A stretch of DNA of 64,000 nucleotides from Verrucomicrobiota bacterium. Lineage in GTDB: Bacteria > Verrucomicrobiota > Verrucomicrobiia > Verrucomicrobiales > DEV007. The stretch covers positions 1 through 64,000 of the forward strand of contig JAGWVU010000005.1 in NCBI GenBank assembly GCA_018970725.1, given 5' to 3'. Under the pieces are notes generated by a model that was not told where the DNA came from, ran no database searches, and worked only from the letters and a program-made list of their open reading frames with translations. A program made the translations under genes and the position numbers. Shown piece after piece: positions 2,669 to 59,876 of the stretch (its first letter is position 1; every line of letters begins with the position of its first letter).

Positions 2669-5545
2669 ATGCCCACCACCCGCCGCTTCCTCGATTGGAA
2701 CCGCCCCGTGCTCGAACTCGCGGCCGAGCGCCTGCTGGCCGGGACAACCCCGCCCGTGCTCGACCTGGGGCATCTTCTGGTCGTTGTCCCCACCAAGAAC
2801 GCCGGGCGCCGCCTCCGCGAGATGCTCGCTCATCTCGCCGCGCGGGAGGGCCGGGCGATCTGCCCTCCGCAGGTGGTCCCGCCGGAGTTCCTTCTCAGCC
2901 TGATCTCCGGCCCGGACGACGGCCGGGCCGCCAGCCCGGAGGAAGCATTGCTCGCCTGGGTGACGGTTTTGCAGAAAATCCATTTGGACGATTTTCCAGC
3001 GCTCTTCCCGGTGCCTCCAGCGAACCGGGATTTTCAGTGGGCGCTGGGCACCGCGCGCAGCCTCAACGACCTGCGGAACACCCTCGCGGAGGGAGGGCTG
3101 TCCATCGCCGGCACCTGCGAACTCCTCGCGGAGTCCCTGGAGGAGGCGGCGCGCTGGGAGGATCTGGCCCGGCTTGAGGCGGAGTTCGTGGCCACCTTGA
3201 GGCAGAACGACCGCGAGGACCTGCTGACACGACGTCAGGCGAACCGGCAGTCTCCGCAGCTGCCCGCTGGAATCACGGCCATCCGTGTCATCGCCTGCCC
3301 GGATCCGATCCCCCTCGCCATCGAAGTGCTGGAGCATTTGGGTGAACAGCTTCCGCTCGAGGTCTGGGTGCATGCCCCTGGATCGCTGGCGGACGCCTTC
3401 GACTCCTGGGGCCGCCCGATCCCGGAGGCCTGGGCCCAGCGCCGCATCGAGTTTCCCGGGGGAGAGCTACCGGTCCATGTTCTGCCCGGGCCCGATGCCC
3501 AGGCCGCTCTGGTGGCCGGAGCGATTCCCGACGGTGACACGCCCTCGGCAGTGGTGAGCATCGGCATCCTTGACGACGAGGTGACCGGTCCCTTGCGGCG
3601 CCTCCTGGAGAAGGACGGAAGACCGCCTTTCGACCCGGGCGGGACGCCGCTGCGCTCCGAGGGGGTGCTGCACTTGTTGCGGGTCCTCCGCGAGTTGCTG
3701 GAGAAGAAGGGCATCGAGGCTTTCGCCATGCTCCTGCGGTGTCCGGATTTCGATGCCTATCTGGCCAAAACCCTTCCGCAGTGGAACGCGGTGGAGGCCC
3801 TGCGGGTTCTCGACAGCTCGCGCCGCAAACACCTCTTTGCAGACCTGCCCTCGTTGCAGGGATGGTTTGCGCGACCGGGCGGGAACACTGCCTCCTCATT
3901 GACCGGGGCGCTGGAGGTCACCGGACAATTCCTCGCCAGGTTGGGACAGCAGCCCCTGACCACCTCCCTCCTGGACGGACTCAGGGATCTTCTCGGAAGC
4001 CGCCCTTCTTCCGCCGATCCCCGTCCCGCCCGGGTCCAGCAAACCGTTTCGGAGGCCATGGTGCCCCTGCTCGAAGCGGTGGAAGGCCCAATCGGCACCA
4101 GCTTGAAACTGCGGGCATCCGACCTTTTCGCCCTCCTCCTCGCCACCTTGGAGCAGGAGACGCTTTACGAAGAGCGACGTCCTGGTTCGATCGAATTGCT
4201 CGGTTGGTTGGAACTGCATTGGGACGAGGCGCCCCACCTCATGGTCACCGGCTTCAACGAGGGCTTCGTGCCGGAGTCGCTCACGGGGGACATCTACCTC
4301 CCCGAAGGACTGCGCAAGCGCCTCGCCGAACTCACCCGTTTCCCCACCAACGAGAGCCGATTGGCGCGCGACACCTATCTTTTCGAGGCGTTGCTCCAGT
4401 GCCGCCGGGACGGGGGAAGAGTCGATTTTTGTCTGGGACGACACAGCCGGGGCGGCGATCCCCTCCGTCCGTCCCGCCTCCTTTTCCTCTGCGCGGACGA
4501 GGATCTGCCGGACCGGGTGAGGACCCTTTTCCGCGACGCCCCGCTGCCGCGCGGGAACCTTGCCTGGACGCCCGGGTTCGAACTTCAGCCCTTTCCGGGC
4601 AATCCTCCGCCGTATGCCCCAAAAACCCTGAGCGTCACCGCTTTCAGGGAGTATCTCTCCTCACCCTTCACGTTCTACCTCCGGCGGGTCGAAGGTATGG
4701 AGACGGTGCCCGACGATCCCCAGGAACTGGACGCACTCGGGTTCGGGAATTTCTGTCACGAAGTTCTCCGGCAGTTTGGCGCTCACCCTGAGGCGCGCGA
4801 GTCTTCCGACGCCGCGCAGATCCGGAAATTTTTCCGTGACCGGGTGGACGAACTCGCCGTGAAGACTTTTGGATTCCATCCACCGCTCCCGGTCCGCATC
4901 CAGCTCGACGGGATCCGCGCCCGGCTGGACCAAGCCGCCGAAGTCCAGGCCAGAAGCCGCGCGGACGGTTGGCGCATCATCAAATCCGAATACCAGCTCG
5001 ATAATCCGCCTTTTGTCCTGAAAGGCGTCGAACTCCACGCACGCATCGACCGGATCGACGAACATGAAAAGACGGGGGCGGTCCGTGTCCTCGATTACAA
5101 AACGTCCGACAAAGCGGTAAAGCCGGAGACCGCTCACTGGACCAAGGTAACCAAAGGCACAAAGCTCGACTGGGTGCCGGAGTATGCCAGGTTTTCGATC
5201 GATTCCAAGAATTTTCGGTGGAAGGACCTGCAGCTCCCGCTCTACCGGCTCATGCTCAAGTCCGAATATGGCGACGCGATCGAGTGCGCTTACTTCACGC
5301 TGCCAAAGGCGGTCGAGGAGACGGCGATCCTTCCTTTCACCGAACTGGGCCCATCGGAATGCACCCACGCACAGAATTGCGCCGAAGGCATCATCAAGGA
5401 CATTCGCGAGCGCCGCTTCTGGCCCGCCCCTTCCCCGAAGGCGAAGGATGAATTCCACCGTCTCCATCTCGGCGCACCGCTCAAGACCTTCAATCTCGCC
5501 CCCATGAACTCCCCCCGCCCCGTCCATGAAAAACCTGCGGAATGA
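2669..5545 (+). CDS. AddB-like PD-(D/E)XK nuclease subunit
   Basis: A 958-residue protein, probably the nuclease partner of the helicase-nuclease that follows, for double-strand-break end resection. The C-terminal domain has the RecB-family nuclease signature: GFGNFCHEVL near residue 690, the DRID acidic site near 793, VLDYKTS near 807 and QLPLYRLM near 854. The N-terminal half has VLVVVPTKNAGRRL-like sequence where AddB and RecC-type subunits carry a helicase-like fold, but no intact Walker A is visible. The start at MPTTRRF is chosen because the frame upstream is only the shadow of the opposite-strand surface protein. The stop overlaps the next gene by 20 bases, indicating an operon. Assignment to AddB rather than another PDDEXK partner rests on context. 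Confidence 0.8.
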   Translation: MPTTRRFLDWNRPVLELAAERLLAGTTPPVLDLGHLLVVVPTKNAGRRLREMLAHLAAREGRAICPPQVVPPEFLLSLISGPDDGRAASPEEALLAWVTVLQKIHLDDFPALFPVPPANRDFQWALGTARSLNDLRNTLAEGGLSIAGTCELLAESLEEAARWEDLARLEAEFVATLRQNDREDLLTRRQANRQSPQLPAGITAIRVIACPDPIPLAIEVLEHLGEQLPLEVWVHAPGSLADAFDSWGRPIPEAWAQRRIEFPGGELPVHVLPGPDAQAALVAGAIPDGDTPSAVVSIGILDDEVTGPLRRLLEKDGRPPFDPGGTPLRSEGVLHLLRVLRELLEKKGIEAFAMLLRCPDFDAYLAKTLPQWNAVEALRVLDSSRRKHLFADLPSLQGWFARPGGNTASSLTGALEVTGQFLARLGQQPLTTSLLDGLRDLLGSRPSSADPRPARVQQTVSEAMVPLLEAVEGPIGTSLKLRASDLFALLLATLEQETLYEERRPGSIELLGWLELHWDEAPHLMVTGFNEGFVPESLTGDIYLPEGLRKRLAELTRFPTNESRLARDTYLFEALLQCRRDGGRVDFCLGRHSRGGDPLRPSRLLFLCADEDLPDRVRTLFRDAPLPRGNLAWTPGFELQPFPGNPPPYAPKTLSVTAFREYLSSPFTFYLRRVEGMETVPDDPQELDALGFGNFCHEVLRQFGAHPEARESSDAAQIRKFFRDRVDELAVKTFGFHPPLPVRIQLDGIRARLDQAAEVQARSRADGWRIIKSEYQLDNPPFVLKGVELHARIDRIDEHEKTGAVRVLDYKTSDKAVKPETAHWTKVTKGTKLDWVPEYARFSIDSKNFRWKDLQLPLYRLMLKSEYGDAIECAYFTLPKAVEETAILPFTELGPSECTHAQNCAEGIIKDIRERRFWPAPSPKAKDEFHRLHLGAPLKTFNLAPMNSPRPVHEKPAE

Positions 5546-8500
5546 AATGATCCTCGCCTCGGCCGGATCAGGCAAGACCTACCGGCTAACCAATCGATTT
5601 GTCCATCTCCTCGCCCTCGGCGTTTCCCCGGAGCGCATCATCGCCCTCACCTTCACCCGGAAGGCGGCGGCCGAGTTCCTCGACGAAATCCTCAAGAAAC
5701 TGAGCACGGCCGCCTCGAACCCCGGCTTTGCCACTGAACTGCGCGACCAGCTCGAGCTCGAAAACTTCGGTTCGACGGAGGCGCTGAAACTGCTTCGTCT
5801 GGTAATCGACCGCCTCCACCTGCTCACGCTGGGAACACTCGACTCTTTTTTTCACCGGATCCTGGCCTGCTTCCCGGCCGAGTTCGGTCTCGGCGCCAAG
5901 TTCGAGGTCTTGAGCGACCACGATGCGATCGCGGCGCGCGCCCGGGTCTTTGCGAGCGTCTACGCCAACCGGACAACCGAGGACGAGTTCATTGAGGCCT
6001 TCAAAAAGTCCACGTTCGGCTCCGAGGAGAAGAACCTCCAATCGATTTTGGACGACTTCGTCACCAGCCACCACCAGACCTACCTCCGGCAGCCGAACCC
6101 GAGCCGATGGGGTCGCAAGGAGACGATCTGGCCCGGGAGCGCCCCGTGGCTTGAGCCCCGCTCGACACCGGAGGAAGCCTGTCGCCATCTCCGCGCCGCC
6201 ACAGCCGGTTTCCATCTCGACAAAAAGGCGCTCGCGATGTGGGAGGGCCTCCTCGACTTCCTCGAGCATCTCCCGGGAGCCCAAAAATCAAAGCCTTCGG
6301 ACACGACGCTGGAGCGCTTCCTCCTCGCCTACACCAAGGCGATGCGGGGCGGGCCGGTCGACCTGAAATTCAACCGGAGTCCCTTCACCCTCCCGCCGGA
6401 TCTTTGTGCTTCTCTCGCGGATCTGGGGCACCACTATCTCGCTTTCAAGATCAACCCGTATCTCGAGCGAACCCAGGGGATTCACCAGATCCTGAGAATC
6501 TTCGAAGACACCTACGGCCAACAGATCCGGCGCGCCGGCATGCTGGGATTTCTCGATATCCGCCTGCTGCTCAACGGCACCCTCCTTTCCGAGAACTGGC
6601 ACCAGGAGCTGAGCGCCTGCGGCGGCGAGGGGAAGTTGCATGTGGACTATCGTCTCGATGGAAAATTCGATCACTGGCTCCTCGATGAATTCCAAGACAC
6701 CAGCAACGACCAGTGGCAGGTCATCGCCAACCTGATCGACGAGGTCCTGCAGGATTCCGGCGGGCAACGGAGCCTTTTCTATGTGGGCGACGTCAAACAG
6801 GCGATCTTCGGCTGGTGCGGAGGCGATTCAGCCCTGTTCAATGACATCCGGAATCATTACAATTCCCGTCGCCCCGATTGCATCGCCACCGAGCAAATGC
6901 AGGACAGTCGTCGCTCCGGCCCGGCCCTGATGGAGACCATCAACCGGATCTTCGGGGATACCGCCACCTTGCGCTCGCTCTTTCCCGATCATGAGGAGTT
7001 TCTCCAACGCTGGGAGGCCGATTGGGTCCCGCACACCACCCATCACCAGGATCGTTCGGACTATGTGGAACTCCTGACCCTCGACGAGGATCCGGAGTCC
7101 GAGGAGTCTTCCAAGGAACGGGGATTTGCGGCCGTCGCCGCGCTCGTCGCGGAAATCGCCCCCCACGAGCAAAACCTCTCCTGCGCCATTCTCGTCCGCA
7201 CCAATGACGACGCCTTGGAACTGGCCAACACGATCCGCGCCCGCACCGACGTTCCCGTCACCGTGGAGAGCGATACCCTGATTGGCTCCGACCACCCGAT
7301 CGCTTCCTCTTTTGTTTCGCTCCTCCAGTCCGCCGCCCATCCCGGGGATACCACGGCGTGGCGGCACGTCCTCATGACCCCGGCCTTTGCCGCGCATCCC
7401 TGTCAGGAACACGGATCTTTGCAGCGCAGGATCCAGCGGCGCGTCCTGACCACGATTCACGATTCCGGGTTCGGCGCCACCTTTGCCCTCTGGCTCGATC
7501 TCCTCGCCCAGGGCGGTTTTGTCCCCGACGAATTCGCCCGGCACCGGATCGACCAATTGCGACAATCCGCCGAGGATTTCGATGCCGACGGCAACCGGTC
7601 GATCGCCGACTTCATCCGCACGATCGAAAGCGCCGCCTCGCGCGAAGCCCCGGCGGAAGGCGTGGTCCAGATCATGACGGTCCATAAATCCAAGGGACTG
7701 GGATTCGATGTCGTCATCCTGCCCGATTTCACGGCCGAACGAAACGTGAAGTCCATCACCTCTCCCGGAATCCTTTCCCTCGTCGCCCACCAGAGTGGTG
7801 TCGGTCTGCACCGGGAGATCGACTGGGTTCTCAAGATGCCCAACAAGGACGTCTGCCTCGCGGACCCCACCTTGCTCGAAGCCCGCCAGAAACTGGAGAA
7901 CGAAAGAGCTTACGAGGAACTTTGTGTGCTTTACGTAGCCTTGACCCGGGCGAAATACGCCACTCACATCCTCTGCGTCCCTCCGAAGATGGCCTCCGAT
8001 CCTGACGCCACCCCTAAAGGGAGCACCCGGGAGATCCTCCACACCACCCTGAAACAGGATTCCGGCGTCGGGGCAGCCCGGACACTGGGTGAGGAAGTTC
8101 TCACCCGCGTCTACGCGCTGGGCCATCCGGACTGGCATCACACTCATCGCGGGACCCGCCCGGCCCCGAAGCAGGAGACACGGATCCCGCCGGTCCACCA
8201 ACGGCGCCCGTTCCCTCCGATCCCGCGCGCCCTTCCCTCGAGCGGAGCCGATGATGCGCACGCCGAAAAACAGGGGAGCCACTTCCTTTTTTCACGCCGC
8301 TCAAGGGAAGCCGCGAACCACGGCACCAAGCTCCACGCCGTTTTTGAACGCATCGACTGGCTCGACCACCTCACCCCTTCCACCCTGGAAGAGACCGTCC
8401 TTACAGGGCTCGATCCGGCCGATCCCTCACAGAGCGCCCTCCGCGAAGAAATCCTCACCGCGTTGCGCGCTCCCGCCATCCTCGCTTTGTTCCAGCGCAC

Positions 8501-8789
8501 CCGCTTCGGCCCGGACCCGACCCTCTGGCGGGAGAAGCGTTTTGAGATCATCCATGAAGGATCATGGGTCTCCGGCACCTTCGACCGCGTGGTCCTGACA
8601 GCGGAAGAAGCCTGGATCCTCGACTTCAAGACCAACCGGGTGAGCACGCCCGGGGAAATCGCCGCGGCGGCGGAATCCTACAAATCCCAGCTTGCGGTCT
8701 ATCGCCACGCCTTGTCCCGTCTCACCGGGGTTGCGCCGGAAAACATTCACACGCATCTCATCTTCACAAAGCCAGCGGTGCTGGTGTGA
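5526..8789 (+). CDS. AddA-like UvrD/Rep-family helicase-nuclease
   Basis: A 1087-residue superfamily 1A helicase fused to a RecB-type nuclease. Helicase motifs appear in order: ASAGSGKT (residues 11-18), ALTFTRKAAAEF, LLDEFQDT (about 386), VGDVKQAIFGW (about 420), VHKSKGLGFDVVILP (about 718) and LYVALTRAK (about 801). The C-terminal nuclease shows HGTKLHAVFE (about 932), SGTFDRVV, ILDFKTN (about 1036) and QLAVYRHAL, so both ATPase and nuclease residues look intact. It starts inside the end of the AddB-like gene, implying translational coupling. By family it should unwind and trim DNA ends to load RecA. No RecD-like third subunit is nearby, which fits AddAB rather than RecBCD. Confidence 0.88.
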   Translation: MKNLRNEMILASAGSGKTYRLTNRFVHLLALGVSPERIIALTFTRKAAAEFLDEILKKLSTAASNPGFATELRDQLELENFGSTEALKLLRLVIDRLHLLTLGTLDSFFHRILACFPAEFGLGAKFEVLSDHDAIAARARVFASVYANRTTEDEFIEAFKKSTFGSEEKNLQSILDDFVTSHHQTYLRQPNPSRWGRKETIWPGSAPWLEPRSTPEEACRHLRAATAGFHLDKKALAMWEGLLDFLEHLPGAQKSKPSDTTLERFLLAYTKAMRGGPVDLKFNRSPFTLPPDLCASLADLGHHYLAFKINPYLERTQGIHQILRIFEDTYGQQIRRAGMLGFLDIRLLLNGTLLSENWHQELSACGGEGKLHVDYRLDGKFDHWLLDEFQDTSNDQWQVIANLIDEVLQDSGGQRSLFYVGDVKQAIFGWCGGDSALFNDIRNHYNSRRPDCIATEQMQDSRRSGPALMETINRIFGDTATLRSLFPDHEEFLQRWEADWVPHTTHHQDRSDYVELLTLDEDPESEESSKERGFAAVAALVAEIAPHEQNLSCAILVRTNDDALELANTIRARTDVPVTVESDTLIGSDHPIASSFVSLLQSAAHPGDTTAWRHVLMTPAFAAHPCQEHGSLQRRIQRRVLTTIHDSGFGATFALWLDLLAQGGFVPDEFARHRIDQLRQSAEDFDADGNRSIADFIRTIESAASREAPAEGVVQIMTVHKSKGLGFDVVILPDFTAERNVKSITSPGILSLVAHQSGVGLHREIDWVLKMPNKDVCLADPTLLEARQKLENERAYEELCVLYVALTRAKYATHILCVPPKMASDPDATPKGSTREILHTTLKQDSGVGAARTLGEEVLTRVYALGHPDWHHTHRGTRPAPKQETRIPPVHQRRPFPPIPRALPSSGADDAHAEKQGSHFLFSRRSREAANHGTKLHAVFERIDWLDHLTPSTLEETVLTGLDPADPSQSALREEILTALRAPAILALFQRTRFGPDPTLWREKRFEIIHEGSWVSGTFDRVVLTAEEAWILDFKTNRVSTPGEIAAAAESYKSQLAVYRHALSRLTGVAPENIHTHLIFTKPAVLV

Positions 8790-48326: not shown

Positions 48327-51300
48327 ATGCACCGCCCCTCGCTCCTACTCGCGTCCCTCTTCCTCCTCGCCTGTGCCGTTCCGCACCTCGAGGCCACCGT
48401 GACGCTTCAACTGGCCGCAGATCGCCTCAACACCAGCAGCGGCACCGCCGCACCATCCTCCACCCTCGTCCTCGTCGTCGCCGACACCACCCGCGACGGC
48501 TTGGCCACCGCCGTGCAGGGGAGCATCGCCACCGGCGCCGTGCTCCCTGGCGGCGGACTCGACGACCTCGTGGTTTTCCGGACCGACCTTTCGGCCCTCG
48601 CCACCCCGGGTGTTCTCTCCTCCCTAGCCACCGGAATCGATTTCTCGATCGATCCTCAGTGGAACTGGGACGCAGGCGACCCTCTGTATCTCCTCTGGTT
48701 TCCCAGCCTGACCACGGCGACCACTTCCCTCTCCGCCGGAGTCTCCTACGGCCTCATCTCGCTCGGGTCGACACCACCCGACGGCGGGATTGGGGATTAC
48801 CGTTATGTCTCCCCCACCAACACCGGAACCTTCGGGAGCACCCCAATCCCCTCGAACGCAACCAATACCGCGGCCGACCAGACCTCCGTCGTCCCGCCCG
48901 CACCCGAGATCGCCCTCAGCGGGAACGGCAGCGGGATCGTCAGCGGCACGACCGTGACGTCGACGGCGAATCATACCGATTTCGGTTCCACGCCGGTCGC
49001 CGGGGGATCGGTCGTGCGCACATTCACCATCACGAATTCGGGGACAGCCCCCCTCACCCTCTCCCTCCCGGTTTCCATCAGCGGCCCTCAGGCGGCTGAA
49101 TTCACGCTTCTCACGACGCCTTCCCTCTCGGTCGCGGCCGGAGGAGGAACCACCACGTTTCAAGTCTCGTTCGATCCCGCCGCAGCCGGTTCACGGAGCG
49201 CTGTCCTTAGCTTCGACAACAATGACGCCGACGAGAATCCCTTCTCCTTCGCCATCGGAGGCACCGGCACCAACTCGGCTCCGACGGACATCGCGCTTTC
49301 CAACGCGACTCTGGCCGAGAATGGCTCCGCCAACGCCGTGATCGGCTCCTTCAGCGCCACGGATGCCGATCCCGGGGACAGTCACACCTATTCCCTGGTG
49401 ACAGGCACGGGGAGCACCGACAACAGCGCCTTCAACATCAGCGGAAGCAACCTCAGGATCAACGCCGGGGCGAATTTCGAGGCCAAAGCCTCCTACAGCG
49501 TCCGGGTCCGCGCCACCGACAACGCGGCAAGTCCCGCGTTTTTCGAAAAAGCCTTCGTCATTTCGGTGACCGATGTGAATGAGGCCCCTTCCAATCTTTT
49601 GCTTGGCACCAGTTCGCTGAACGAGGGAAGCCCGGTCAATACCACCGTCGGAGTCCTCTCCGCCACCGACCCCGACGCCGGAGAGGCACTCACCTACTCG
49701 CTGCAGGCCGGAACCGGGGATGACGATAATTCAAGTTTCACGATTGCCGGGGCGGCCCTGAAAATTGCCATCGTCACGGATTTTGAGACGAAGAATTCCT
49801 ACTCGATCCGGGTCCGGGCCACGGACAGCGGCAATCCGGGGCTCTTTACGGAGGCCACCTTCACCATCAGCATTTTGGACGTGGATGAGACCCCCGGGGA
49901 GATCGTCCTTTCGGACGCGAATCTCGACGAGAACAGCCCGGCCGGGAGCACTGTCGGGAGCCTCTCGCTCAATGATCCGATCGCCACCCCGCCCGCGTCT
50001 TTCACCCTGGTAGCCGGTGACGGTGCGACCGACAACGCGGCTTTCGCCATCAGCGGCAGCGACCTCAAATTCAGCGGCGTTGCCAATTTCGAAGCGAAGA
50101 GAAGCTACAGCGTTCGCATCCGCTCCACCGACCGCAGCTCCACCCCGAGGGTCGTCGAGGAGACCTTCGTTATTGCCATCACGGACCTCAACGAAGCGCC
50201 GACCAACCTGCAACTCTCAGCGCTCACCCTTTCCGAAGATGCCGGAACCGATGCCTTGGTCGGCGCGCTTTCCGTATCGGACCCGGACGCGGGAGACCTG
50301 GCCCAGTTTGCCCTTGTCCCGGGAACCGGTGACACCGACAACGCTGCGTTCAGCATCCAAGGGTCCGGACTCCGTTTCAACGGGGAACCGGATTTTGAAA
50401 CCAAATCAAGCTACCAGATTCGTATCGAGGCGAGCGATTCCGGCACCCCCGCCCTGAGCGTGGACAAGGCTTTCACCATCACCGTGAGGGATGTGAACGA
50501 GCCGCCCACGTTTGTTGCCGGAGCGAACCAATCCCTTCCGGCCGGCACCACCGGATCGCAGAGCCTCGCGAATTGGGCGACGGCAATCGACGATGGTGAC
50601 GCCTTGGCGACTCAAGCCCTTTCGTTCTCTGTCGATGTCGTCTCCGGAGCCTCCCTCTTTGCCGTTCCCCCCGCCGTCAGCCCAACGGGAACCCTCACCT
50701 TCCGGTTGACCGGTTCGCCGGGCTTGGCCGAACTCAGTGTCACCCTCACCGACGACGCGTCGATCAACGGAACATCCGCCATCGAATCCTCTCCCCAGAC
50801 GTTCAGCATTGCGGTCACCTCGGGTGACATCACGGTCACGGGCAATGGATTCGCCATCGGGCATGGCGATGCGACACCGGACTCCGTGGATGATACGGAC
50901 TTTGGCATCGTCGATATTTCCGGCGGTGGCGAGGTCGGGACGTTCACCCTCACCAACGCCGGGGACGGGGTCTTGACCCTCGGCACCGTGGTTCTCCAGG
51001 GCACGAACAAGGAGGGCTTCACGATCACCCAGGTTCCGGATTCCACTTTGGATCCCGGCGCGTTTACCACACTTGAGGTTACCTTTGATCCAGCGACCGT
51101 CGGCGAGCGTTCCGCCACCGTTGTCATCCCCTCCAATGATCCGGATCGCGGCTCTTTCACCTTCGCCATCGAGGGAGTCGGTGGAGCCCCGGACATTGTG
51201 GTCGAGGACGACGGCACCAGCCTTCAGGATGGCTCCACCCTTTCGTTTGCCAGCGTGGCCCTCGGCGGTTCGACGGTGAAAACTCTGAGCCTCCGCAACG

Positions 51301-53867
51301 CCGGAGCCATTCCCCTGACCGGCCTGGCGGTTAGTTTGGATGGCCCGGACGCCGAAGAATTCGTCGCGTCCGACCTCACGGCCGATTCCCTCAACCCAAT
51401 GGAGAGCGTGGAGATCGCCCTGACCTTCACCCCGGCTTCCACCGGCCAGCGGACCGCGACCCTGCGGATTGACAGCGATGATCCGGATGAGGCTCCCTTC
51501 CTGCTCACCCTGTCCTGCCTCATCGATGGACGCGATGGAAAGGTGGTGGCCCGGCCCGACACCGAAGCCGCGGACCCGGACCTCGAAGATTCCGACTGGG
51601 AGAGCGGCGCGGCCGGTCTTTACGAGGGGCTGCTCTACGTGAGCGATGCGTTAAAAGGGGCGGTGTCCAACTTGCGGATCACCGCGCCGTCCCCAAGCTC
51701 CACCGCCGGGGGCACCGTCTCCGCCACGGTGCGGCTCAACCGCACCACCGCCACCCTCAGGGGAAGTTTCGATTCCGCAGGGCGCTTGGTTTCGGCTCCC
51801 GGAGCTTCGCTGGCCTTTGATCTTCAGTTGAGAGGCAACGACGACGATTCCGCCTACGCCCTTACCGGAACCGTAACCCTCGGCGGAGTGACGGCCGATG
51901 CCTATTTGCCGAGGACCCCGTATTCAACCAAGATCCCGGTGCCCGAGGATCGTTTTGGGATCGGTCCTTACACGCTTTTGCTTCCTTCGAATCCGGGCGC
52001 CGGAGACACAACTCCCGGCGGGGACGGTTGGGCCACCGCCAACCTGTCGCGGAGTGGCAGTTTCAGCGTCACAGGCCGCCTTGGAGACAACACCAGGTTC
52101 ACCGAGACAGCCTACCTCACGGCGGAGGGCGAGCTCTTCCTCTTCACCGAGTTGTATCCGAGCACGCCAGGGAAGGGATTGTTTGGCGGAAAGCTCACCC
52201 TCCGCGACCTCACCGGCAGCGATCTGGACGGTCGCATGCAATGGATCAAGGCGCTGGATACCCGGACGGGGAGGCGTCGCGAACATTCCTATCCGGAGGG
52301 CTTCAGTCAGGAGGTCTGGGCCATCGGCTGTCGTTTCACACCGCCCCTTTCCGGCGTGCGAGCCCTCGATGACCTGGCGGATCAGTATTACAACGCGGAG
52401 ATTTCTCTCATCGGGCCCTCCGGTCCAGGCCTCAATGCGGCCGGACTGGACGCGGTGGCCACTTGGTTTCCCACCAACCAAATCAAGCATTTCGGCCCCC
52501 GCCCCATCGACGCCTCGGTGAACCCCCGGAACGGTTCCTTCACCGGAACGTATTCGGATGCGCCGGCGCGGTTGACGATCAGCTTTGATGGCGTGGTCTT
52601 CCAGAAACAGGAAATCGCCGCGGGCGTCTTCATCAATGCCAACAAGACCGGCGCGGTCCGGATCAAACCGGGAGTCGGCTTGACTTACCCCGGCAGCGAG
52701 GACGCGGGCCTCCTGACTCGACTTGAGAAGCCCTCCCCCCCAGCCTCCGCACCCAACCTCACTCCGGAGCCCACCTTCCCATCCGCTGCTGCCGGCACTT
52801 ACAACGGCGTGCTTTCGGTGGCCGAAGCCGGGACCGACGCCCCTTGGCCCCTCCAAACCGCAGGTGGCCTCGAATCGATCGTCGTCACCTCCTCGGGCGG
52901 GTTTTCTGGTGCCCTTTGGCTGGACGGGGCGCGGTATTCCGTCCGGGGAACCATCGGCCAAACCACCACTCTCTCCAACGGCATCACGCTTGAGTTAACC
53001 CTATCGTCCATGACCGGAGTCACGGGCGGCTTCGTTCTGGAGGGAGCCGTCACCAGAGACACGGACGAGTTCATTCTGAGCGGCCAACGCCGTCCCACCC
53101 ACACCCGCTCCAATCCCTCCCCCTGGAAGAATTCCTACACCATGGCGGTCTGTGCGCCCGCCGGGGCGGACGCCGCCAACCAACCCGCCGGTGACGGCTA
53201 CGGCAGCCTTTCCGTCGCCTTCAGTGGCAGCTGTTCGGGGATGGTCACGCTTGCGGACGGCACCAAAGTCACCTTGGGTGGTCATATCGGCCTTCCTTAC
53301 ACCGATGCCACCACCCAAACCGCCATCTGGAGCTTCCATCGCGGAATCTACGGTCGCACCCCCAAGGGCTATGTTGCCGGAGCGATCACCTTCCGCACCG
53401 TGGCCGGCGTCTCCAGTCTCGACGGGGAATGGCGCTGGGTGAAGCAGGGTGGCGCGAGCCCTGCCTCCGTGTATCCCGACGGAATCGACATAACGACCGA
53501 GGTGCTTGGTTCCATCTATGTCCCTCCGGCCAAAAACGTCCAGGCCATGACCGGTCTCGACCCAACCCTGGACAACGTCTGGCTGCGTTTTTCGAAGACC
53601 GACCTTTCAACATTGGCCAGTCTGGAGTTGACCGGGAAGGACCTTGCCGGTACCTGGCAAGCCGACAACAAGATTATCCACTACGGTCCGCAATCCGTCA
53701 CGATGACCTTCAACGCTTCCACCGGACTGCTCACGGGGACTTACAAGGATACCGCCAACGGGATCAATTTCTCCTTCGGCGGGGCCCTGATCCAATCCCA
53801 GAATCTCCTCACCGGTTCCTTCCTGACCCAAAACAAATCAGGACTTTTCGTCATCGAAAAGCGCTGA
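48327..53867 (+). CDS. very large secreted protein with choice-of-anchor-D and cadherin-like repeats and a duplicated C-terminal module
   Basis: An 1846-residue protein with a signal peptide (MHRPSLLLASLFLLACAVPHL). Residues about 190-316 and 831-1065 are choice-of-anchor-D/ASH-type domains (FGSTPVAGGSVVRTFTITN, FDPAAAGSRSAVLSF and similar). Residues about 318-724 are four cadherin-like repeats of about 100 residues, each with a LxENGSANAVIGSF-like start, FEAKASYSVRVRATD and DVNEAP. Residues about 1096-1445 and 1489-1846 are two diverged copies of one uncharacterised beta-rich module. No PEP-CTERM, LPXTG or type IX signal is visible at the C-terminus (GLFVIEKR). Likely an adhesin or surface-matrix protein. 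Confidence 0.9.
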   Translation: MHRPSLLLASLFLLACAVPHLEATVTLQLAADRLNTSSGTAAPSSTLVLVVADTTRDGLATAVQGSIATGAVLPGGGLDDLVVFRTDLSALATPGVLSSLATGIDFSIDPQWNWDAGDPLYLLWFPSLTTATTSLSAGVSYGLISLGSTPPDGGIGDYRYVSPTNTGTFGSTPIPSNATNTAADQTSVVPPAPEIALSGNGSGIVSGTTVTSTANHTDFGSTPVAGGSVVRTFTITNSGTAPLTLSLPVSISGPQAAEFTLLTTPSLSVAAGGGTTTFQVSFDPAAAGSRSAVLSFDNNDADENPFSFAIGGTGTNSAPTDIALSNATLAENGSANAVIGSFSATDADPGDSHTYSLVTGTGSTDNSAFNISGSNLRINAGANFEAKASYSVRVRATDNAASPAFFEKAFVISVTDVNEAPSNLLLGTSSLNEGSPVNTTVGVLSATDPDAGEALTYSLQAGTGDDDNSSFTIAGAALKIAIVTDFETKNSYSIRVRATDSGNPGLFTEATFTISILDVDETPGEIVLSDANLDENSPAGSTVGSLSLNDPIATPPASFTLVAGDGATDNAAFAISGSDLKFSGVANFEAKRSYSVRIRSTDRSSTPRVVEETFVIAITDLNEAPTNLQLSALTLSEDAGTDALVGALSVSDPDAGDLAQFALVPGTGDTDNAAFSIQGSGLRFNGEPDFETKSSYQIRIEASDSGTPALSVDKAFTITVRDVNEPPTFVAGANQSLPAGTTGSQSLANWATAIDDGDALATQALSFSVDVVSGASLFAVPPAVSPTGTLTFRLTGSPGLAELSVTLTDDASINGTSAIESSPQTFSIAVTSGDITVTGNGFAIGHGDATPDSVDDTDFGIVDISGGGEVGTFTLTNAGDGVLTLGTVVLQGTNKEGFTITQVPDSTLDPGAFTTLEVTFDPATVGERSATVVIPSNDPDRGSFTFAIEGVGGAPDIVVEDDGTSLQDGSTLSFASVALGGSTVKTLSLRNAGAIPLTGLAVSLDGPDAEEFVASDLTADSLNPMESVEIALTFTPASTGQRTATLRIDSDDPDEAPFLLTLSCLIDGRDGKVVARPDTEAADPDLEDSDWESGAAGLYEGLLYVSDALKGAVSNLRITAPSPSSTAGGTVSATVRLNRTTATLRGSFDSAGRLVSAPGASLAFDLQLRGNDDDSAYALTGTVTLGGVTADAYLPRTPYSTKIPVPEDRFGIGPYTLLLPSNPGAGDTTPGGDGWATANLSRSGSFSVTGRLGDNTRFTETAYLTAEGELFLFTELYPSTPGKGLFGGKLTLRDLTGSDLDGRMQWIKALDTRTGRRREHSYPEGFSQEVWAIGCRFTPPLSGVRALDDLADQYYNAEISLIGPSGPGLNAAGLDAVATWFPTNQIKHFGPRPIDASVNPRNGSFTGTYSDAPARLTISFDGVVFQKQEIAAGVFINANKTGAVRIKPGVGLTYPGSEDAGLLTRLEKPSPPASAPNLTPEPTFPSAAAGTYNGVLSVAEAGTDAPWPLQTAGGLESIVVTSSGGFSGALWLDGARYSVRGTIGQTTTLSNGITLELTLSSMTGVTGGFVLEGAVTRDTDEFILSGQRRPTHTRSNPSPWKNSYTMAVCAPAGADAANQPAGDGYGSLSVAFSGSCSGMVTLADGTKVTLGGHIGLPYTDATTQTAIWSFHRGIYGRTPKGYVAGAITFRTVAGVSSLDGEWRWVKQGGASPASVYPDGIDITTEVLGSIYVPPAKNVQAMTGLDPTLDNVWLRFSKTDLSTLASLELTGKDLAGTWQADNKIIHYGPQSVTMTFNASTGLLTGTYKDTANGINFSFGGALIQSQNLLTGSFLTQNKSGLFVIEKR

Positions 53868-54019: not shown

Positions 54020-54047
54020 TGAAAAAGGCAATGCAGGCGCTCCCTGC
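54020..54047 (-). terminator. possible terminator of the tRNA-Arg gene
   Basis: On the minus strand GCAGG and CCTGC (54033-54047) form a five-base stem, followed a few bases on by five T (54022-54026). It begins about ten bases after the tRNA 3' end. The stem is short, so confidence is modest. Confidence 0.5.
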
Positions 54048-54056
54048 TTTGACGAG

Positions 54057-54130
54057 CGCACCCGTAGGGATTCGAACCCCAAACCTTCTGATCCGTAGTC
54101 AGATGCTCTATCCAATTGAGCTACGGGTGC
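54057..54130 (-). tRNA. tRNA-Arg (anticodon ACG)
   Basis: The minus strand folds into a full cloverleaf. The acceptor arms GCACCCG and CGGGTGC pair perfectly, the D arm is GCTCAATTGGATAGAGC, the anticodon stem TCTGA/TCAGA encloses CTACGGA with anticodon ACG, and the T loop is TTCGAAT. The discriminator is G and CCA is not encoded. The ACG anticodon (A34, normally edited to inosine by TadA) reads CGN Arg codons. Confidence 0.95.
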
Positions 54131-54279
54131 CGCACGGCCACTGGCCGGAGGGGAAAGGTGCGTGGAAACCGGACCGAATCAAGGACTTTCCGCTTCAAAT
54201 TCAGGCCAGACCTCTTTTCCTGACATTCATCCCATTTGATTGCTTGCCTGAATGAAATGTTTAGGCCATAGCGTGATCC

Positions 54280-55731
54280 GTGGAACTTAAGGATCTCCAG
54301 GAATTCCTCGGCAAGTCCCCGGCCGTGCGCCTTCTCCGCGCGAACCACGGAGCCGTCATCCTGCATTTCCTGCATCGGGAGTTCAAGGAGAGCCAGCGTT
54401 CCCTCGTTTCCCATGAGCAAATCAGCGCCGACCTCGCGGAGTATCAGGCTTGGCTCGCCGGGTCCGGTGAAGCCGAAGCGTCGCTCCTCGGTGAGCCGTC
54501 CGAGTATCTCAACCAATGGTGCAAGAGCGAGGTCCGTTTCCTCCAGAGGTTCTACCAGAGCGGGAGCGAGGAACCCGTCTACCAGCTCACCTCGCCCGCC
54601 GAGACCGCCCTCCGGTTCGTGCGCGAGGCTCTCGCCAGTGATGGCCAGTTCGTCGGTGCCCAGAGCCGCATGAGCCTCATCGTGGAGACCCTGCGCGAGA
54701 TCTCCGTCTTCGCCCAGGACAACCCGGACCGCCAGATCGAAGCGCTCGAAGCCGAAAAAACGCGTCTCGAGGCCCGGATCGAACGGATCCGCAGCAGCGG
54801 TCAGGCCGAGCGCATGGATTCCACCCAGGTGCGTGAGCAGTTCCATTTCGCGATCGATCTCCTGCAACGGGTGCTCGGGGATTTCCGACATGTGGAAGAC
54901 AAGTTCAAAGAGATCACCCGCGAGGTGCAGGACCGACAGATGGCCGGTGACCGCCGGGGCGGGCTCCTCGAGTTCGTCCTTGATGCGGAGTCGCTCCTCA
55001 AGGAATCCGATCAGGGCCGGACGTTCCATGGGTTCGTCAATCTCATTCTTTCTCCGGGCCGACAGGAGAAGCTGCGGCAGTTGGTCGATGCGATTCATCA
55101 GGTCCCGGACCTTGCCGGGTGTGGCGAGGGCTTGGAGATGCTGCGCCAAATGATGCCCGCGCTCACTGCCGAAGCCGAGCAGGTGATGCAGACCAACCAA
55201 CGCCTCTCCGCCTCGATCCGGCGGCTGCTGGACGGAAGGGTGGCCGATGAGCGTCGCAAGATCGCCCTGACGATGGACGAGATTCTCAATCTGGCCCGCC
55301 AGAACCGGAACGCGCCTCCGGGCGAGGAGGAGATCGACCTTGAAGTCGAGGATCCCATCCGCGTCTTCTCCTGCTTCAGCCGGCAGTTCTGGACTCCGGC
55401 GGCCGAGGTTGAATCGGTCAGTCTGGTCACGGACGCGATCTCCGCCGAGGATGTGGACGAGGCTTTCGACCTCTTTGCCGGGATGCAACGGCTCGATTGG
55501 GGAGCGATGCGCCGCACCATTGGAGAGCTCACCGCGCGGGAACCATCGGTCTCCCTCCCCCGCCTCCTCGAAGTCCGTCCCCCACGAAGCGGGGTGGTCG
55601 AGGTGCTCGGCTACATCCAAATCGCCTCGGACGACGACCACGTGCTCCTCGGCGAGGAGAGCGATGTCGTCCACGTGCCCGGCTCGTGCGCCCTGCAGGT
55701 TCCCCGGGTCATTTTCCGTCAGCCGGTCTAA
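54280..55731 (+). CDS. jetA: Wadjet type I protein JetA (DUF3375, MukF/kleisin-like)
   Basis: A 483-residue protein from GTG 54280. ELKDLQEFLGKSPAVRLLRA and HFLHREFKES at the start, YQLTSPAETALRFV near residue 105 and a long charged helical middle (about 140-240) match the DUF3375 family, the kleisin-like JetA of type I Wadjet (MksF/EptA type). With JetB and JetC it should form a ring-shaped SMC complex that extrudes loops on small circular DNA. It precedes jetB by 22 bases. The tRNA-Arg lies 150 bases upstream on the other strand. Confidence 0.9.
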   Translation: MELKDLQEFLGKSPAVRLLRANHGAVILHFLHREFKESQRSLVSHEQISADLAEYQAWLAGSGEAEASLLGEPSEYLNQWCKSEVRFLQRFYQSGSEEPVYQLTSPAETALRFVREALASDGQFVGAQSRMSLIVETLREISVFAQDNPDRQIEALEAEKTRLEARIERIRSSGQAERMDSTQVREQFHFAIDLLQRVLGDFRHVEDKFKEITREVQDRQMAGDRRGGLLEFVLDAESLLKESDQGRTFHGFVNLILSPGRQEKLRQLVDAIHQVPDLAGCGEGLEMLRQMMPALTAEAEQVMQTNQRLSASIRRLLDGRVADERRKIALTMDEILNLARQNRNAPPGEEEIDLEVEDPIRVFSCFSRQFWTPAAEVESVSLVTDAISAEDVDEAFDLFAGMQRLDWGAMRRTIGELTAREPSVSLPRLLEVRPPRSGVVEVLGYIQIASDDDHVLLGEESDVVHVPGSCALQVPRVIFRQPV

Positions 55732-55753
55732 GCCTGACCGCCCCATTTTCCCC

Positions 55754-56356
55754 ATGAGCTTGTTGCCCGAATTCCACGAATCCAGTATTGCCTCGGTGAA
55801 ACTCCTGCAAGGAGCCGTCTACAGGGACGACACCAAGGCATGGGACATCATCCTCACCAACCGGTCCCGTCTCGAGAGCTACTTCGGCCGCGTCGGTCTC
55901 GTTTTGGTGATCGATGAGCCGGAGGGTTTCGCCTACCTGCGCCAGCTGGAGGAACACGAGTTCCCGGATGGTTACGACCGCATGCCGAAGCTGATCCGCA
56001 AGAGCCGGCTCGGCTATGACCTGACCCTGTTCTGCATCCTCCTCCGGGACGAACTGCGGCGCCATGAGGAACAGGGAGCCGAGGTGGGACGATGCATCGC
56101 CGATCTCGATGATCTCTTCGTCCGGTTGCGCGAACTGATGCCCGATGCCGAAGACGAGGTTCGCTCCCGGAAGAAGTTGGATCATCTCGTCGTCCGCGCG
56201 CAGGAACTGGGTTTTCTCCGCCGCCTGCCCTCCGAGCCGCCCGTTTACGAGATCAAACCGATCCTCAAGGCCCGCATCACGGCGGATCGTCTGGAGGAAT
56301 TGAAGGAACAACTCGCCGTCTTCACCGCCGCCCGCAAAGAAACGCTCCATGCATGA
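55754..56356 (+). CDS. jetB: Wadjet type I protein JetB (DUF4194, MukE/kite-like)
   Basis: A 200-residue protein. ASVKLLQGAVYRDDTKAWD at the start, FGRVGLVLVIDEPEGFAYL, RLGYDLTLFCILLRDELRR and KLDHLVVRAQELGFLRRL match the DUF4194 family, a winged-helix kite subunit of the condensin-like complex. The ATG at 55754 gives the family's normal length; the longer open frame upstream overlaps jetA and is not protein-like. Its last 8 bases overlap jetC. Confidence 0.9.
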   Translation: MSLLPEFHESSIASVKLLQGAVYRDDTKAWDIILTNRSRLESYFGRVGLVLVIDEPEGFAYLRQLEEHEFPDGYDRMPKLIRKSRLGYDLTLFCILLRDELRRHEEQGAEVGRCIADLDDLFVRLRELMPDAEDEVRSRKKLDHLVVRAQELGFLRRLPSEPPVYEIKPILKARITADRLEELKEQLAVFTAARKETLHA

Positions 56357-59300
56357 CCCCACCTTTTCCCCGAACGCCCTGCCAGGGTATCGTCTGGCCA
56401 AGGTCCAAGTGATGAACTGGGGAACCTTCGACTCTTCGAAGGGCCAGATCCACACGGTTCGTCCGGACGGCCGGACCTCCCTGCTCATTGGCCAGAACGG
56501 CAGCGGCAAGTCCACCTTGGTCGACAGCATCCTCACGCTTCTGGTGAGGCCGGGGGTTCGGAATTACAACGTGGCGGCCGGATCATCCGGCGGAAAGCGG
56601 GAACGGGACGAGCGCTCCTACCTGCTGGGGGCGTTCGGCCATGCCAGTTCGGACAGCGAAAACAAGGCCTCCACCCTCTACCTGCGCAAGGAGGGACGCC
56701 ACCTCAGCATCCTCCTCGCGTATTTCCACAACGCCCAAACCGGCCGGGGTTTCACCATGGCCCAGGTGCTTTATTCCGGGGTCGATGGCAAGATCGAGAA
56801 GATCTTCTGTTTCGCCAAGGGGGAAAAGGATATCGCGGTCGACTTCGAAGGGCTCAAGTCCATCGATCAGATCTGTCCGAAACTCGAGTCCCGCGGCATC
56901 AAGACCACCCGGACCTTCCTGCAGTATCACAAATGGATGTTGGCCGAGACCCAGATGCGCGGCAAGGCGATGGACATCTTCAATCAAACGGTCGCGGTGA
57001 AGGACATCCGCAGCCTGACCGAGTTCATCCGTTGCCACATGTTGGAGGCCAGTGATTGGCAGGATCGGATCGACGACATCCTCAACCACTTCCAGCAACT
57101 CTCGGATTCCCACCGGATGCTCGTGGACGCCCGCGAACAGGCGGAAGCCCTTCAGCCGGTGGTGGCAGCGGGAGTCGACTACCAGAACCTCAAGGCATCC
57201 CTCAACGTGCGTGAAACGGTTGAGCGGGCCTCGGAGACCTTTTTCCGCACCCGCACCGCCCAGCTTTTCGGCCAGGCCAGGGCGGCCCGGCTCGCCGAAC
57301 AGGAGGCCCTCGTCAGGGAAGTCACGCAAACCGGTCAGGATCTTGAACAGGGTGAGGATCAAATCCGCAGGCTGCGCAACGACATCGAGCACGCGGGCGG
57401 CGAGCGCCTGCGATCGCTCCCATTCCTCGTCCAACAGAAAGAGCAGGACAGCCGCCGGCGCCGGGAACGCGGCGAACGCTACCACAAGGCCTTGGCCAAG
57501 GCCGGTTTGCCCGGACCCGTGGAAGACCCTGCCACCTTCGAGATGCTGGAGCGCCAACTGGCCGGGCTGCGGGCCGAGGTCGATGAACTGGTTCAGGCTA
57601 CCGATCAATCCCGCTTTGAAAACGCGCTCAAGGCCCATGATCTCAACCAACGCCGCGAGCACCTCGAGCGTGAGATCCGGGCGCTCGAGGAACGGCGCTC
57701 CAACATCCCCGAGTCGTTCCTGCGCCTCCGCCGGGATCTCTGTCAGGCTCTCTCCCTGGAACCATCCGACCTCCCGTTCGCGGCGGAACTCATGATGGTC
57801 CGCCCCTCGGAAAACCGCTGGCAGAGCGCCGCCGAAACGGTGCTCCGCAGTTTCGGCCTCGGTCTTCTGGTCCCTTCCCAACATTACCGGGAGATCAGCG
57901 CCCACCTCGACCGAACCAAGCTCCGCGACGCCACTGGCCGCGGCCAGAGACTGGTCTACCACCGGGTCGGGGAGATTTCTCCCGCCGCTCAGGAACTCGT
58001 CCAAGCCGCCACCCCGGATTCCCTGTTGCAAAAGATCGATTTCAGCCGGGAACATCCCTTTTCCGAATGGGTGCGGGCGGAGATCGCCCAGCGCTTCAAC
58101 TACCGTTGTTGCGATACCCTCGAGGCCTTCCATGAGCAGCGTGCCATGGCGCTGACGCCGGACCGGCATGTCAAATCAAGCGTCAACCGTCTGGAGAAGG
58201 ATGATCGTGAACAGGTCTCGGAGCCGCGCCATTTCATCCTCGGCTGGGACAACCGGGCCAAGCTCGATACCCTGCGAGGGGATCTGGGACTGATCCTGGC
58301 CGATATCCAACGCCTTGTCATCCAAGCGCAGCATCACGCGGATCACATCGCCGAGTTACAGGCGCGCCGCGAAGCCATCCAGCAGGCCCTCGAGGTCAAG
58401 GCCTTCGCGGAGATCGATCATGCCACGCCCGACCGTGAGATTTCCGCGCTCCTCAAGGAAAAGGAGGGTCTGGAAAACACCGACCAGATCGTCGCCACCT
58501 TGACCCAGCAACTTCAGGCGACCAGCGATCGCAAACACCGGCTCAAACAGCGCGAGTCCGAAATCACGAAACGCCTCGGGGTCATCGAACGCGAAATCGC
58601 CCAGGCCGCCCAATTTGTGGACGCCGCCGAACGACGACTCGCCGAAGCCCGGGCGCTTGGGGAACTTGAAGGGCACCAAGCCCACTTCCATCAGATCGAG
58701 ACGGATCTCGCCGCCGCGGGCATCGTGCTCACCCCGGAAACACTCTTCGCCGGGGAGAACGCCTTCCTCGCCGGTCTCCGCGAGGCCATCGCCCGCATTC
58801 GCGCCGAGCTCGAGCCGCTCGAGAAATCCCTTCTTCAGTCCATGGGACGGTTCCTCCGGAAGTTCCGCAATTTTGAACACGAATTGCGCGACGACCCGGC
58901 CTACATCGAAGACTTCATCCGCCTTCACGATACCCTCGAGCATGAGGACCTGCCCAAGCACGAGCAACGATTCAAGGAGCGCCTCAATGAGAAAGTGACC
59001 ACCGAGCTGGGCATCCTCAACAACCAGCTCACCAACGAACGAGAGGACATCCTCACCCGCATCGCCACGCTGAACCGATGCCTTGAGACGATCGATTACG
59101 ACCCGCTTGCCGGAACCTTCATGCAGCTCGATCCCAAACCGGTTCGGGACAAGGAAATCGATGAATTCCAGAAGCTGCTGCGGGACTGCCTCAGCGACGC
59201 TTTCGACGGCGCGTTCGAGTCCGACGAGGCCCGCTTCCAGAAGATCGAAGGCCTGATCAACCGGTTGCGCGAGGAACCGCGCTGGCGGGAGAAGGTGACC

Positions 59301-59849
59301 GACGTGCGTCGCTGGTTCGACTTCGGCGCCCGCGAAACGGTGCGGGCCACCGGCGAGGAGCGGGGTTACTATTCCGATAGCATGGGCCAGTCCGGTGGGG
59401 AGAAGGCCAAGCTCGCGTTCACCATCCTCGTCGCGGCCGTGGTCTACCAGTTCGACATCGATCCGGAAGCCTCCATCAGCGACCGCTTCCATTTCGTCGT
59501 GGTCGACGAAATGTTCTCCAAGATTGACGATCGCTACGCGGAATACGCGATGCGCCTCTTCCAGAAATTCGGCTTGCAGTTGCTCATTGTGGCCCCGTTC
59601 GACGCCAAGGCCAAGGTCACGGAACCGTTTGTCGACTACTACATGCACGTCATCAAGAAGAACAACCGATCCCGGGCTCTCACGATGTCCTCCGGGGAAT
59701 TCAACGGGCGGTTCGGTCAGGGAGACGTGGAGGGCATCGGGCCCGCGGCCGTCCCGGGGCCCCCGCCGCTTCCGTCGACACGGGTCGTCGCCATCGCCGA
59801 GCCACGCCTCCACCCGTTCTCAGCGGACGACCTGCCCCTGAACTCTTGA
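56349..59849 (+). CDS. jetC: Wadjet type I protein JetC (SMC/MukB-like ATPase)
   Basis: A 1166-residue SMC-like ATPase. YRLAKVQVMNWGTFDSSKG and SLLIGQNGSGKSTLVDSIL give the N-terminal Walker A (about residues 48-56). Long Gln/Glu/Arg-rich coiled coils occupy about 280-560 and 640-940, with a hinge-like globular part between. The C-terminal head has SMGQSGGEKAKLAF (ABC signature) and FHFVVVDEMFSKIDDR (Walker B). All ATPase motifs appear intact. A roughly 45-residue Pro-rich tail (after about 1120) has no clear counterpart. jetD, the nuclease gene normally next, is absent. Confidence 0.93.
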   Translation: MHDPTFSPNALPGYRLAKVQVMNWGTFDSSKGQIHTVRPDGRTSLLIGQNGSGKSTLVDSILTLLVRPGVRNYNVAAGSSGGKRERDERSYLLGAFGHASSDSENKASTLYLRKEGRHLSILLAYFHNAQTGRGFTMAQVLYSGVDGKIEKIFCFAKGEKDIAVDFEGLKSIDQICPKLESRGIKTTRTFLQYHKWMLAETQMRGKAMDIFNQTVAVKDIRSLTEFIRCHMLEASDWQDRIDDILNHFQQLSDSHRMLVDAREQAEALQPVVAAGVDYQNLKASLNVRETVERASETFFRTRTAQLFGQARAARLAEQEALVREVTQTGQDLEQGEDQIRRLRNDIEHAGGERLRSLPFLVQQKEQDSRRRRERGERYHKALAKAGLPGPVEDPATFEMLERQLAGLRAEVDELVQATDQSRFENALKAHDLNQRREHLEREIRALEERRSNIPESFLRLRRDLCQALSLEPSDLPFAAELMMVRPSENRWQSAAETVLRSFGLGLLVPSQHYREISAHLDRTKLRDATGRGQRLVYHRVGEISPAAQELVQAATPDSLLQKIDFSREHPFSEWVRAEIAQRFNYRCCDTLEAFHEQRAMALTPDRHVKSSVNRLEKDDREQVSEPRHFILGWDNRAKLDTLRGDLGLILADIQRLVIQAQHHADHIAELQARREAIQQALEVKAFAEIDHATPDREISALLKEKEGLENTDQIVATLTQQLQATSDRKHRLKQRESEITKRLGVIEREIAQAAQFVDAAERRLAEARALGELEGHQAHFHQIETDLAAAGIVLTPETLFAGENAFLAGLREAIARIRAELEPLEKSLLQSMGRFLRKFRNFEHELRDDPAYIEDFIRLHDTLEHEDLPKHEQRFKERLNEKVTTELGILNNQLTNEREDILTRIATLNRCLETIDYDPLAGTFMQLDPKPVRDKEIDEFQKLLRDCLSDAFDGAFESDEARFQKIEGLINRLREEPRWREKVTDVRRWFDFGARETVRATGEERGYYSDSMGQSGGEKAKLAFTILVAAVVYQFDIDPEASISDRFHFVVVDEMFSKIDDRYAEYAMRLFQKFGLQLLIVAPFDAKAKVTEPFVDYYMHVIKKNNRSRALTMSSGEFNGRFGQGDVEGIGPAAVPGPPPLPSTRVVAIAEPRLHPFSADDLPLNS

Positions 59850-59876
59850 GACCGCAGCGGATCCTCAAGAGCCGGT

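Follow-up and report, generated by a model that had tools for sequence, protein, structure and literature searches.

Type I Wadjet systems (JetABCD, also named EptABCD or MksBEFG) associate a DUF3375 kleisin, JetA, a DUF4194 KITE subunit, JetB, and an SMC ATPase, JetC, with the nuclease JetD. Their motors extrude DNA and switch JetD on when a plasmid has been extruded in full (PMC12647877). In Corynebacterium glutamicum MksG contacts MksF, the homologue of JetA (PMC7083940), and plasmid restriction in Bacillus subtilis needs all four Jet subunits (PMC10586767). Complexes of similar build are also found at work on chromosomes. Pseudomonas aeruginosa uses MksBEF beside SMC; there, the complex contributes to organising and segregating the chromosome and can substitute for SMC in some activities (PMC7485682). 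In enterobacteria, MukBEF has apparently replaced SMC-ScpAB (PMC10586767). The MksBEF of P. aeruginosa is thought to derive from JetABCD through loss of JetD, and a review even speculates that MukBEF and MksBEF both had defence systems of the Wadjet kind as ancestors (PMC10586767).

The locus described here belongs to a Verrucomicrobiota bacterium known from a draft genome of 4.9 Mb (96.5% complete, 0.35% contamination). The window, namely the whole stretch of 64,000 nucleotides that was analysed, forms the beginning of a contig of 170,958 bases. Three genes follow one another on its forward strand in the order jetA-jetB-jetC, all of them intact according to the list of open reading frames and to profile matches. 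The first, jetA (54280..55731), begins with GTG and encodes a 483-residue DUF3375 kleisin resembling MukF and MksF (PF11855, 300 bits; PADLOC JetA1, 323 bits; best PDB match to JetA chains). After 22 bases comes jetB (55754..56356), coding for a DUF4194 KITE subunit of 200 residues that resembles MukE and MksE (PF13835, 118 bits; PF21980 MksE, 50 bits; PADLOC JetB1; PDB JetB chains), which overlaps by 8 bases the gene jetC (56349..59849), coding for an SMC ATPase of 1166 residues that resembles MukB and MksB (PADLOC JetC1, 1021 bits; PDB JetC chains). JetC keeps its Walker A motif GQNGSGKST (residues 48-56), its signature QSGGEKAKL (1014-1022) and its Walker B motif HFVVVDEMF (from 1048). An earlier note, made on the sequence of the window, had described complete and closely spaced genes with preserved ATPase motifs, followed after 27 bases by a convergent cupin gene. 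The profile matches, the motif check and the coordinates of the open reading frames agree with it on each point, and the gap in question (59850..59876) is too small to hold jetD. Beyond the cupin gene lie an L-lactate permease gene (PF02652) and a DUF932 gene. On the other side, a tRNA-Arg (acg) gene (54056..54130), predicted by ARAGORN on the reverse strand, and hence opposite to jetA, is the sole neighbour of jetABC that is also kept in a sister species. Further upstream, positions 48327-53867 code for a very large repeat-rich protein of 1846 residues, apparently secreted, with an orthologue set amid other genes in another genome of the genus (G073:C100:7668-13229). Positions 5526-8786 encode a UvrD-type helicase with a PD-(D/E)XK nuclease domain, AddA-like, which fits the remark of the earlier note on an AddAB-like pair.

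No JetD was found to complete the set. A search of the whole 96.5%-complete genome for proteins of the JetD family with two Pfam models, JetD_C (PF09983) and DUF3322 (PF11795), returned no match, and the C. glutamicum control was matched by the same search. An alignment of 19 JetD sequences taken from related loci served to build a custom profile, which finds complete JetDs with E values of 1e-125 to 1e-154, even where they sit on a contig other than that of jetC. It gave nothing at E<=1 in the genome of the window, nor in G073 or in the family relative G027, and in the sister species G074 its only match was at chance level (E 0.25, 46 positions). Furthermore, an adjacent jetD is excluded, since in both species the contigs are long and continue beyond jetC with unrelated genes. 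The earlier observation that the window holds no JetD-like gene is thus extended to the genome as a whole, and the suggestion that jetD might reside elsewhere in it has to be abandoned, as far as the 96.5%-complete assembly allows.

The sister species is the main point of comparison. A scan of the genome collection returned a single match (L012, 87% JetC identity), on the contig G074:C16 of a genome of the same genus, 96% complete. There, the tRNA-Arg gene and jetABC are arranged as in the window, also without jetD, and a strong hairpin lies directly 3' of jetC. All other neighbours differ on both flanks, the tRNA-Arg gene being the only flanking gene in common; tRNA gene and operon have either travelled together or stayed together. 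A comparison of flanks for an empty site was attempted: neither G073 nor G074 has the gene order of the window at the locus, and no scar of insertion or deletion could be read. Between the two species, DNA identity over window positions 54040-59714 is 79%, and protein identity reaches 88.6% for JetA, 93.0% for JetB and 87.8% for JetC, above the 84% of HisD, an ordinary enzyme. The ratio dN/dS is 0.040 for jetA, 0.020 for jetB and 0.035 for jetC with dS near 2, as against 0.08-0.15, at lower dS, for pairs of loci that have JetD; with dS so close to saturation these values are approximate, and they are not strictly comparable across pairs of different age. Values of 0.02-0.04 with near-saturated synonymous sites mean that the unit devoid of JetD is old and strongly maintained. 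The complex has been kept for long under strong purifying selection and is no fresh remnant, even though the intact unit is carried by two genomes only, both drafts, and represents one evolutionary event. Faster evolution of JetC after the loss of JetD was looked for in this pair and was not seen. JetC keeps 124 of 130 conserved positions. Of the positions conserved in JetD-bearing systems, those of JetA changed more often (10 of 44, against 6 of 130 in JetC, p=0.001, a weak and post hoc contrast), among them residues 113, 117, 152 and 166 in the genus, and no such excess of JetA over JetC change appeared in the JetD-bearing rows that were tested. As a small sign in favour of the condensin reading given below, this concerns the subunit whose homologue, MksF, is contacted by MksG in C. 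glutamicum.

Gene order in other relatives, which the earlier note had proposed to compare, indicates what was there before. Among the 75 genomes of the family, DUF3375 is present in ten and JetD in six. In G052 (JetC identity 44%) the locus is spread over two contigs and jetD comes immediately after jetC; in G703 (40%) jetD also lies behind jetC. More distant relatives in the phylum mostly end in jetD, and so do plasmid copies in Thiodictyon and Streptomyces, of other phyla. In a JetC tree of 27 rows, the window and G074 pair together (100/100) within a supported clade that also holds G052, G027 and G703, the order of splits inside this clade being weakly supported (81/59). Because relatives on neighbouring JetC branches, G052 and G703 as well as these plasmid copies, have jetD, the gene was lost in the present lineage. 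To explain the tree, the state of JetD must have changed three times or more, which we interpret as one loss each in this genus, G027 and G122. The Wadjet locus of G027 (L042, L067) is apparently decaying: jetA stands alone on another contig with unrelated neighbours, jetB has an in-frame stop, jetC is intact and jetD is missing. In G122 (L050, on G122:C121), jetABC is followed by tyrS with no adjacent JetD, its JetC being 88% identical to that of the JetD-bearing locus of G113, and the same genome has a second, complete JetABCD of another subgroup (L053). In yet another genus, g23, jetD is found on a contig different from that of jetC in G624, G717 and G523 (L105, L106 and L107, respectively); there, jetC is followed by an apparent type I restriction gene in G523 and by a transposase-like gene in G624.

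Absence of a second component sets the genus apart. SMC-ScpAB was looked for with models of Smc (TIGR02168) and ScpA (PF02616). None of the three genomes that represent the genus has canonical Smc, and none has ScpA; the genus being a single lineage, this counts as one event and not three. Outside the genus, Smc is present in 67 of 72 genomes of the family (40 of the 42 that are at least 90% complete, and all 21 that are at least 94% complete), and it is kept in every JetD-bearing genome as well as in G027; ScpA is present in both relatives tested, G027 and G052. A divergent Smc in the genus was considered and rejected, as the best matches to TIGR02168, of 40-49 bits, are confined to its coiled-coil portion. 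In G000 and G073, the best such match, a spurious one, is to a coiled-coil protein of about 770 residues common to both (L154:371-2662 and L156:839-3193, both on the reverse strand). Two family genomes about 90% complete, G044 and G064, have no Smc match while their congeners have Smc, and these are probably assembly gaps. Judging from these profile searches, the genus seems to have no SMC-ScpAB.

We think it probable that the locus encodes a type I Wadjet motor which has lost its nuclease and now acts as an MksBEF-like condensin, doing some or all of the work of the missing SMC-ScpAB. After the lineage lost JetD, JetABC would have been retained as a working SMC-kleisin-KITE complex, with JetC dimers, JetB and the JetA kleisin presumably still binding DNA and extruding loops at the expense of ATP, as Wadjet motors do. 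Without JetD, extrusion would no longer end in a cut, and the complex would act on the chromosome in the manner of MksBEF or MukBEF. The lack of Smc and ScpA in the genus strengthens this reading, and a replacement of SMC-ScpAB by JetABC is plausible. Whether a plasmid-defence complex became the sole condensin of the genus, with JetD lost, the chromosome taken over by JetABC and SMC-ScpAB gone, is a bolder proposition, to which we would give somewhat less than an even chance. The earlier note had left three readings side by side. A condensin of the MukBEF or MksBEF type is now the best supported, with a sister species likewise devoid of JetD, purifying selection and the missing Smc and ScpA in its favour; a distant jetD is excluded within the limits of the 96.5%-complete assembly, and a substitute nuclease has no support, since the flanks of the two JetD-less loci have nothing in common but the tRNA-Arg gene.

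Among the alternatives, the one that survives best, while still rather unlikely, is that JetABC serves the chromosome as a minor or accessory condensin and that the genus lost SMC-ScpAB for unrelated reasons. P. aeruginosa, with its MksBEF beside SMC, provides a precedent for an accessory role, and for Akkermansia muciniphila a complete lack of recognisable condensins has been reported (PMC10197239). In the third genome of the genus, G073, which is 81% complete, neither SMC-ScpAB nor JetABC was found; either the genome truly lacks them or they fell into a gap, for which the chance is about one in five. Loss of SMC-ScpAB may thus need no substitute, and its coincidence with a JetD-less complex may be fortuitous. 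Against this stands the constancy of Smc in the rest of the family, where almost all genomes keep it, including those that have JetD and also G027 with its decayed locus.

It is less likely again that JetABC, though deprived of JetD, still protects the cell from plasmids or other small DNA circles. In this scheme it would extrude and trap them, silence them through compaction, a mode of action proposed for Smc5/6 on extrachromosomal DNA, or recruit an unrelated nuclease encoded elsewhere. All motor subunits are indeed intact, and the relatives of another genus in which jetD lies away from jetC indicate that partners need not adjoin. However, the flanks of the two JetD-less loci have no nuclease gene in common, an arms-race gene would not be expected to combine so low a dN/dS with such conservation, and the requirement for all four subunits in B. 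subtilis speaks against restriction by three. More doubtful still is an artefact of assembly or detection, by which jetD, smc and scpA would be present in gaps or too diverged to be recognised. The genomes of the genus are all drafts, in 108-210 contigs, and of the 42 family genomes outside the genus with a completeness of 90% or more, 2 gave no Smc match; yet Smc and ScpA are each missing three times out of three, in each of the two species jetC is followed on a long contig by unrelated genes, which excludes an adjacent jetD, and the profiles readily recover distant JetDs. Finally, a decaying Wadjet remnant, with JetD gone and the remainder not yet eroded, is very improbable, for despite the loss of JetD at two other loci of the phylum, one of which (G027) is falling apart, here two species have the whole set of three genes intact, at a dN/dS of 0.02-0.04 after near-saturating synonymous change.

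Returning to the preferred reading of a converted condensin, two features of JetB that might have been expected to help place the complex turned out to be uninformative. The match of the jetB product to the MksE model is shared by most JetD-bearing relatives tested, so that it is no mark of condensin identity. The N-terminal IFDR motif, a feature of JetD binding, is absent here and equally absent in the JetD-bearing relatives of the same subgroup, so that its absence is no sign of lost binding; it was seen only in another subgroup, as IFDR in L038 and in similar form in L053 and L054. With type I Wadjet systems, the locus has in common the DUF3375 domain of JetA, the DUF4194 domain of JetB, the ATPase motifs of JetC, the order of the three genes, strong matches to PADLOC JetA1, JetB1 and JetC1, and solved JetA, JetB and JetC chains as its structural counterparts. 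It differs in that JetD is found neither in the operon nor in the genome, and in that its genus has no detectable Smc or ScpA. Since JetD was searched for and not found, it would be wrong to class the locus as a Wadjet system; it represents a variant of type I Wadjet without the nuclease. Its gene set (SMC, kleisin and KITE, with no MksG or JetD) is that of MksBEF, likewise a three-subunit, MukBEF-like complex without nuclease, but P. aeruginosa retains SMC-ScpAB alongside, whereas Smc and ScpA were not found here. With MukBEF of enterobacteria it shares the situation of a different SMC complex in genomes devoid of SMC-ScpAB. However, Pfam models of MukB, MukE and MukF have no match at E<=0.001, and the complex is still recognisably Wadjet, with JetD-bearing kin in the same family. 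The known MukBEF and MksBEF cases are very diverged. Because the present complex remains so close to type I Wadjet and to such kin, the conversion of a defence system into a condensin can be tested on it part by part, and a lineage whose genomes gave no match to the usual condensin would thereby gain a candidate for one. Should JetABC prove to be the sole condensin of the genus, the origin proposed for MukBEF and MksBEF would have been repeated independently, with JetD-bearing relatives still living in the same family.
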